Shown: piece after piece, positions 49,288 through 51,793 of the stretch
Layout of the letters: each line of letters begins with the position of its first letter
Position numbering within the stretch: the stretch's first letter is position 1
Origin: Burkholderiales bacterium
GTDB taxonomy: Bacteria; Pseudomonadota; Gammaproteobacteria; Burkholderiales; SHXO01
DNA length: 64,000 nucleotides
NCBI GenBank assembly: GCA_020854105.1
Contig: JADZGB010000045.1
Coordinates: forward strand, 1 to 64,000
Direction: 5' to 3'
Notes under the pieces: model-generated
What the model was told of the DNA's origin: nothing
Databases searched by the model: none
Seen by the model: only the letters and a program-made list of their open reading frames with translations
Program-made: the position numbers and the translations under genes

Positions 49288-50214
49288 ATGGACCCGCAAC
49301 GCCAAACCTACGAAGCCAACAAGCTGCACAAGCGCCTGCGCCGCCTGGTCGGGCAGGCCATCTCGGATTACGAAATGATCCGGCCGGGAGACCGGGTGAT
49401 GGTGTGCGTGTCCGGCGGCAAGGACAGCTATGCCCTGCTCGACATCCTGCTGAGTCTGAAGGCGCATGCGCCGGTCGACTTCGAGGTGATCGCCTTCAAT
49501 CTGGACCAGCGCCATCCCGGCTTTCCGGCGCACGTGCTGCCCGGCTGGTTCGAGGCGCGCGGCGTGCCCTTTCGCATCGAGACCCAGGACACCTACAGCG
49601 TGGTCAGGCGCGTGGTGCCCGAGGGCAAGACCATGTGCGGCCTGTGTTCGCGCATGCGCCGCGGCGTCATCTACCGCGTCGCGAAGGAGCTGGGCGCCAC
49701 CCGCATCGCGCTCGGCCACCACCGCGACGACATCCTCGAGACCTTCTTCCTCAACCTGTTCTTCGCCGCCCGCGTCAAGGCGATGCCGCCCAAGCTGGTG
49801 AGCGACGACGGCAACCACGTGGTGATCCGCCCGCTCGCCTACGTGCCCGAACGCGAGCTGGAGCGCTACGCGCAGGTGCGCGAGTTCCCGATCGTTCCCT
49901 GCAACCTGTGCGGGTCGCAGGACAACCTCCAGCGCCAGCAGGTCAAGGCCATGCTGCGCGACTGGGAGAAGCGCTTTCCCGGCCGCGTCGAGAGCATGTT
50001 TCGCGGCCTGCAGCACGTGGTGCCCTCGCACCTGGCCGACACCCGCCTGTTCGATTTCGCGGGACTTGCACCCGGGCGAATTCCCGAAGCAGGGGGAGAT
50101 CTCGCGCTCGACCGCGAGCCGCTGCCGCCGTTTCCCCTTCCTGCGGTTGCGCACGACGATGAGGAGCGCGCCGAGACCGAAAATGTGACATCCTTCTTGT
50201 CAAGATCAATTTGA
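49288..50214 (+). CDS. ttcA: tRNA 2-thiocytidine biosynthesis protein TtcA
   Basis: [18 protein letters not shown]-loop, [28 protein letters not shown]. Confidence 0.95.
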
Positions 50215-50264
50215 CAAGCGGAAATCCGGTGACGCATACTGGCCCGGTCGCCAGTCACCGGATT
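50196..50264 (+). promoter_or_regulatory. Promoter/operator region with nested perfect inverted repeats
   Basis: CTTGTCAA-N7-TTGACAAG (50196-50218) embeds a consensus -35 TTGACA; CATACT sits 18 bp downstream. AATCCGGTGAC/GTCACCGGATT (50223-50233/50254-50264) and ACTGGC-N6-GCCAGT (50238-50255) follow. Confidence 0.6.
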
Positions 50265-50272
50265 GCCTTTCC

Positions 50273-51793
50273 ATGAATTGCGCTGAACGCCTCGTTGCCA
50301 TCTTCGGCAGCCAGGCCGAAGTCGCCCGCCACTTCCGCATCGACCGCGCCCTGGTCAGCAACTGGGTGAAATCCGGTTATGTGCCGTCGCGATGGGCCAT
50401 GGAAGTCGAGCACGCCACCGACGGCCGGATCCTCGCGACCGAAGTCCTGAACGAAGCCAATGCGCGCAAGCCCATCCGGCTCAAGTCGCGCGGCGAAGAA
50501 GACAGTCTTTTTGGCCCATCTCTGGCAGGGAGTGACACCATGAACCAATTCGCCCCGGCGAAACGCATCCAGTCGTTCCATCCCCCGCAGCGCACCCTGA
50601 TGGGCCCCGGCCCGTCCGAGATCAATCCGCGCGTCATGGCCGCGATGAGCCTGCCGGCGATCGGCTATCTGGACCCGATCTTCGTCGAGATGATGGAAGA
50701 GTTGAAAGGCCTGCTGCGCTACACCTACCAGACCAGGAACCCGCTCACCTTCCCCGTCTCCGGCCCGGGATCGGTCGGGATGGAGTACTGCTTCGTCAAC
50801 ATGGTCGCTCCCGGGGACAAGGTCATCGTGTGCCGCAACGGCGTGTTCGGCGGACGCATGATCGAGAACGTCGAGCGCTGCGGAGGCGTCCCCGTCGTGG
50901 TGGAGGACACCTGGGGCGAACCGGTCGATCCGCAGAAGCTCGAGGATGCACTCGAGGCCCATCCGGATGCGCGCGTGGTCGCCTTCGTGCACGCCGAGAC
51001 CTCGACCGGCGTGCAGTCGGACGCGAAGACGCTGGTCGAGATCGCGCACCGGCATGACACGCTGACCATCGTCGACGCCGTCACCTCGCTGGCCGGCACG
51101 CCGGTGCTGGTCGACGAGTGGAAGATCGACGCCATCTATTCCGGCAGCCAGAAGTGCCTGTCGTGCACGCCCGGCCTGTCGCCGGTGTCGTTCAGCGAGC
51201 GCGTGGTCGACTACGTGAAGAGCCGCAAGGACAAGATCCACAGCTGGTTCATGGACATGAACCTGCTGCTCGGGTACTGGGGTGCGACCACGCGCACCTA
51301 CCATCACACCGCGCCGACCAACAGCCTGTATGCGCTGCACGAAGCCCTGCTGATCCTCAAGGAGGAAGGCATCGAGAACTCCTGGGCGCGCCATCAGCGC
51401 CATCGCCTCGCGCTGAAGGCCGGCCTGGAAGCGATGGGGCTGAAGTACCTGGTGAAGGAAGGGGCGCAACTGCCGCAGATGAACGCCGTGCACATCCCCG
51501 AGGCAATCCGGGAGCGCGAGGCGGAAGTGCGCAAGACGCTGCTCACCGAGTTCAACCTCGAGATCGGCGCCGGCCTCGGACCTCTCGCCGGCAAAATCTG
51601 GCGAATCGGCATCATGGGCTACAGCTGCAAGCCCGAGAACGTCATGGTCTGTCTGTCGGCGCTCGGCTCGGTGCTGTCCGACATGGGTCTGCCCATTCAC
51701 GTCGGCGAGGCGGAAGCCGCCGCACACGGTGCGTACGCCCAGCTCCATGCCAAGGCGGCGCAGCAGAAGAAGCGGGTGCAGGCAGCCGCCTGA
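50273..51793 (+). CDS. Class V aminotransferase (alanine/serine-glyoxylate type) in frame with an N-terminal Cro/YdaS-like HTH
   Basis: Codons 1-89: MNCAERLVAIFGSQAEVARHFRIDRALVSNWVKSGYVPSRWAMEVEHATDGRI. Aminotransferase from the internal ATG at 50540 (TLMGPGPSEINPRVM..., SGSQKCLSCTPGLSPVSFS). Confidence 0.82.
   Translation: MNCAERLVAIFGSQAEVARHFRIDRALVSNWVKSGYVPSRWAMEVEHATDGRILATEVLNEANARKPIRLKSRGEEDSLFGPSLAGSDTMNQFAPAKRIQSFHPPQRTLMGPGPSEINPRVMAAMSLPAIGYLDPIFVEMMEELKGLLRYTYQTRNPLTFPVSGPGSVGMEYCFVNMVAPGDKVIVCRNGVFGGRMIENVERCGGVPVVVEDTWGEPVDPQKLEDALEAHPDARVVAFVHAETSTGVQSDAKTLVEIAHRHDTLTIVDAVTSLAGTPVLVDEWKIDAIYSGSQKCLSCTPGLSPVSFSERVVDYVKSRKDKIHSWFMDMNLLLGYWGATTRTYHHTAPTNSLYALHEALLILKEEGIENSWARHQRHRLALKAGLEAMGLKYLVKEGAQLPQMNAVHIPEAIREREAEVRKTLLTEFNLEIGAGLGPLAGKIWRIGIMGYSCKPENVMVCLSALGSVLSDMGLPIHVGEAEAAAHGAYAQLHAKAAQQKKRVQAAA

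Follow-up and report, generated by a model that had tools for sequence, protein, structure and literature searches.

In the present study, a Cro-like helix-turn-helix (HTH) domain and a class V aminotransferase (AT) were found in one reading frame of the window (the whole stretch of 64,000 nucleotides analysed, from a Burkholderiales bacterium), and the fusion, its upstream operator, an internal start and the codon bias at that start are conserved among relatives within a large, uncultured betaproteobacterial group. These features make it probable that the gene encodes a trigger enzyme produced in two forms, a minor long autorepressor and a major short plain enzyme; DNA binding, repression, dimer mixing and the relative amounts of the two forms are what we infer. 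The features are as follows.

50197..50217, no strand assigned: predicted operator TTGTCAAGATCAATTTGACAA, overlapping the promoter and the last ttcA codons (fixed-spacing conservation)
50211..50240, + strand: predicted sigma70 promoter TTGACA-18-CATACT (10 of 12 consensus bases)
50273..51793, + strand: long form, Cro-like HTH plus linker plus class V aminotransferase, 506 aa (ORF, in-frame relatives)
50273..50467, + strand: Cro-like HTH domain, residues about 1-65, five helices (profile and predicted fold)
50468..50539, + strand: disordered linker, residues 66-89 (low pLDDT)
50528..50536, + strand: internal Shine-Dalgarno (SD) region GGGAGTGAC, encoding Gly-Ser-Asp (codon bias, duplex energies)
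50540..51793, + strand: predicted short form, a stand-alone aminotransferase of 417 aa from ATG 50540 (conserved start, AGT-family matches)

Domains of the fused protein

The reading frame at 50273-51793 (+) is open for 506 codons from its ATG with zero stops between the HTH and the AT, and Pfam matches were obtained for both domains, bearing out the preliminary description of an HTH in frame with a class V aminotransferase. Residues 6-60 score 38.3 bits against Pfam YdaS_toxin (cut-off 30), and the isolated domain reaches P22_Cro marginally (30.3 bits against a cut-off of 30.2). By profile, the nearest solved structures are the prophage Cro 3bd1, the Cro hybrid XPH1 and P22 Cro. The predicted model of residues 1-89 contains five helices with a core pLDDT above 90, and its best fold match is 3bd1 (Xfaso 1 Cro; TM 0.85 by target length), whereas solved YdaS structures fit poorly (E 1.6-3.9, versus 2.5e-3 for Cro). 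Because 3bd1 is the best match by both profile and fold and solved YdaS matches poorly, the modelled domain is better named Cro-like than YdaS. The HTH had previously been given 89 codons, of which about 65 hold as HTH and the remainder is linker, residues from about 66 up to the AT being disordered in the predicted models; confidence in the model of the whole protein is no more than moderate (mean pLDDT 71). Variation in the HTH of the fused-gene alignment lies mostly at third codon positions, and together with the invariant residues this indicates selection on the HTH as a protein.

The AT domain matches Pfam Aminotran_5 with 73.7 bits (cut-off 21.5), and the AT part of the model matches PucG and AGT structures. 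Lys294 and Arg444 are invariant across an alignment of 56 fused proteins and, by analogy to AGT, are taken by us to be the PLP lysine and the substrate-carboxylate arginine. A YHHTAP motif is present as in 1vjo, where PucG (3isl) has HHTEA instead of HHTAP, and none of the equivalog models scored above its own cut-off for the AT protein. Judged from sequence, this is an AGT-type class V aminotransferase with putative glyoxylate transamination. The enzyme-domain fold is common to the fusion, 1vjo, human AGT (alanine/serine-glyoxylate aminotransferases) and PucG, but these three have no HTH. The same genome also encodes another class V aminotransferase (G000:C48:1858-2994, L002), which is 31% identical and gave no HTH match. 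MocR/GntR proteins likewise join a DNA-binding domain at the N-terminus to an aminotransferase-like domain of PLP fold type I; however, they combine a GntR winged HTH with an aspartate-aminotransferase-like domain (PMC6677901) and the fusion combines a Cro-like HTH with a class V AGT-type enzyme. The contrast with MocR drawn previously thus stands for HTH type and aminotransferase subclass and fails for the fold, both enzyme domains being PLP fold type I. Membership of MocR/GntR was rejected, as no GntR winged HTH was among the matches listed at E up to 1 in the profile search of the ORF.

Catalytic residues that appear intact and a predicted DNA-binding domain thus lie in one chain, which is the architecture of a trigger enzyme. 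PutA, BirA and NadR, discussed in PMC8249747, are likewise enzymes with their own DNA-binding domain, although both the DNA-binding domains and the enzymes differ from those described here; no aminotransferase is among the five E. coli cases listed in that source, and its passages on trigger enzymes do not mention that one ORF gives two forms. The only place bound by PutA is the region of its own promoter (PMC8249747), and the fused gene has a single predicted operator. With these precedents and the retained catalytic residues, the long form alone might matter as a metabolite-sensing repressor whose DNA binding is switched, as in PutA, by substrate or by the PLP or PMP state. We regard this as possible though rather doubtful, since it leaves unexplained the nucleotide-level selection for the internal start described below.

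Two predicted translation starts and a predicted operator

First, the internal start at the AT boundary is present in 96/96 fused genes (ATG in 95, GTG in 1), and the ATG at 50540 described earlier is real, with GGGAGTGACACC preceding it in the window. The SD duplex of this start has a mean energy of -6.5 kcal/mol; AT-only starts average -4.5, the 1422 other ATGs within the fused genes -2.4 and the long-form starts -1.1. When the site was recoded synonymously, the native SD came out stronger at p<0.05 in 54 of the 80 distinct genes. In counts that, like those of the operator motif below, are not phylogenetically independent among relatives, the SD-site glycine is GGG or GGA in 85/86 cases, against 487/3205 (15%) in the AT body, and the SD-site serine is AGY in 68/68, against 414/2041. 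In some genes the site encodes Pro-Glu, and CCGGAG still gives GGAG in another frame. The Gly/Ser codon bias and the retention of GGAG when the residues differ indicate that the internal start is kept by selection on nucleotides for translation initiation. In a synonymous-rate profile along the gene, which alone is not decisive, Gly86 stands out in the linker. Only the long form might be made, with the internal ATG and GGGAG as relics of the ribosome-binding site of the ancestral gene, as the AT start is older than the fusion and AT-only orthologues have an SD there too. This is unlikely, because the SD of fused genes is stronger than that of these orthologues, runs against the genes' own codon preference and survives in another frame where residues changed. 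Comparative evidence supports both a true regulator-enzyme fusion and translation of one ORF into two products, two mutually compatible options in the preliminary description, the second remaining a prediction.

Second, the long-form start has no SD. If the -10 is set at 17 nt, the predicted leader is at most 2 nt for 30 of 75 long starts (4 of these being negative, as an upstream TTG or ATG was counted as the start) and 3-10 nt for 9 more. The long-form start should therefore be leaderless or nearly so in up to about half of the genes; for the window, a leader of about 26-41 nt is predicted.

Third, a near-palindrome, TTGTCA-N8-TTGNYA, with the spacing always the same, was observed upstream of 88/95 fused genes, and by eye the remaining 7 have a copy that departs from it at about one position. 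It was found upstream of 0/36 unfused orthologues, and the rough chance expectation is about 0.002 per 400-base upstream region. The preliminary description had guessed the binding DNA at 50196-50264, which was well placed, as the predicted near-palindrome occupies 50197-50217. In most relatives TTGTCA doubles as the -35 and is followed, after 17 nt, by a -10-like TAATCT or TAGAAT, predicted -10 boxes often being weak. The best promoter match in the window instead uses the second half-site as its -35 (TTGACA-18-CATACT; 1 found versus 0.2 expected in shuffles), and the alternative -35, TTGTCA at 50197 with a 17-nt spacer, corresponds to that of relatives. Because the second half-site of most relatives sits in the promoter spacer, promoter function alone does not explain it. 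Among ten fused genomes scanned for the operator pattern, 8 match at their own locus only, 1 has an extra match and the tenth has as its own operator a variant outside the pattern; a recurring second site, and with it a regulon beyond the own gene, was absent from these ten, and the genome of the window has the pattern at one site only. Since the own locus is essentially the sole match per genome, the near-unique operator points to a dedicated autoregulator, and regulation of the own promoter is predicted from the co-occurrence of operator and fusion together with about one site per genome. The HTH could activate this promoter rather than repress it, as the sign is indistinguishable from sequence; however, the operator covers the -35 and spacer, the usual position for repression, and activation is unlikely.

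Around the predicted -10 and leader, a 10-base perfect inverted repeat (ATCCGGTGAC/GTCACCGGAT, 50224-50233 and 50254-50263) was also observed; it is absent from the same-genus relative L073, and GTCACCGGAT recurs before the ATG in L053, L054 and L056. In L013 and L040, the operator lies about 240 nt upstream of the ATG, with about 200 nt of extra, partly similar DNA separating the operator-promoter from the ORF, perhaps through insertion of a small element.

Distribution and origin of the fusion

Scanning genome contigs yielded 69 loci, with HTH and AT in one stop-free frame wherever the sequence suffices. The HTH family occurs in 37 of 300 genomes of the order, in six families (f1, f6, f11, f13, f30, f46), and its places there are open frames of at least 505 codons with one exception of 94 codons, which appears to be cut by a contig end (compare L052). 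No stand-alone HTH gene was found in these 300 genomes, and 369 sampled genomes of the class yielded only the HTH of the window and one distant 73-aa protein; a separate HTH gene in relatives was therefore rejected. A comparison of relatives had been suggested, and in all informative ones HTH and AT share one ORF. Although a single window could look so, chance read-through, whether by recent loss of a stop from an HTH gene or by assembly error, has a negligible probability, as the fusion is seen at 96 loci from many genomes with the frame conserved in 79/79. The lost stop considered in the preliminary description is refuted by a fusion common to at least six families and older than their divergence, and an indel or sequencing error is excluded because independent assemblies are in frame and the HTH-plus-linker length is a multiple of three in 79/79 distinct full-length genes. 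The titled matches appear to be metagenome assemblies; no published description of this fusion was found in the literature, which metagenome-only representatives may explain. Two atypical loci were noted: L004, a contig binned as Terriglobia and probably misbinned, has a fused gene whose HTH is 89% identical to this betaproteobacterial family, and L143 (G288) has an AT adjoining ttcA without its N-terminal part or an HTH, which may reflect decay of a fused gene or faulty assembly.

In a tree of 117 AT proteins, in which not every inner branch is well supported, three changes account for the distribution of the fused label, consistent with one gain (branch support 98) and two losses (L124; L083 with L130), and these three losers lack the operator too. 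The phylogeny indicates an ancient and maintained fusion that predates the divergence of at least six families. Because ttcA lies upstream of both fused (52) and unfused (17) loci, the HTH was probably inserted in place beside the AT gene. At some loci metF, ahcY, mgtE or transporter-type neighbours were named by eye from sequence; the shared context is ancestral and hints only weakly at glycine/one-carbon metabolism. Viral contigs and phages contain only distant stand-alone relatives of the HTH (34-47% identity), and no phage gene was recognised beside a fused gene. Herein, we tentatively propose, as an account falling a little short of probable, that a phage cro, together with promoter and operator, was taken up in situ between ttcA and the aminotransferase gene, making a one-gene feedback circuit: the often leaderless long form would repress, the internally started short enzyme would counteract it via dimer mixing, and the ratio of the two starts would set the enzyme level.

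Proposed mechanism and its meaning

Dimerisation is expected for this enzyme fold family. In the two-form trigger enzyme, pairing of the enzyme domains would bring two HTHs onto the single near-palindromic operator, and long/long dimers bound there would cover the own promoter and block transcription. The strong internal ribosome-binding site would make the HTH-less enzyme the main product, and the long form would be the minor one because its start has no SD and frequently coincides, or nearly so, with the 5' end of the mRNA. Dimers of one long and one short chain would weaken repression and thereby set the enzyme level; ligand control as in PutA could coexist with the two-form model.

Parts of this design have counterparts. 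Phage Cro proteins (Xfaso 1 Cro 3bd1, N15 Cro, P22 Cro, PY54 Cro) resemble the fusion in HTH fold and palindromic operator, although the HTH of the fusion is chromosomal and joined to an enzyme; the PY54 cro and cI transcripts are leaderless and start directly at AUG (PMC4488713). In AerR (PMC6199135) and VirF (PMC5101355), internal initiation within one ORF yields a short protein beside the long one, so that two-form regulators are real, but unlike the fusion these are non-enzymes. The short form of VirF, its autorepressor, is also made from a leaderless mRNA (PMC5101355), whereas the leaderless product predicted for the fusion is the long one.

Trigger enzymes are already known; what seems new, from the sequences compared, is the pairing of a Cro-like HTH with a class V aminotransferase and a conserved second start. 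Few enzymes regulate their own gene, and the fusion would add a new domain pairing, traced to a single gain and two later losses, with a built-in two-start design whose signals are conserved and directly testable. The regulator would be missed wherever annotation shortens such genes to the 'enzyme' start.
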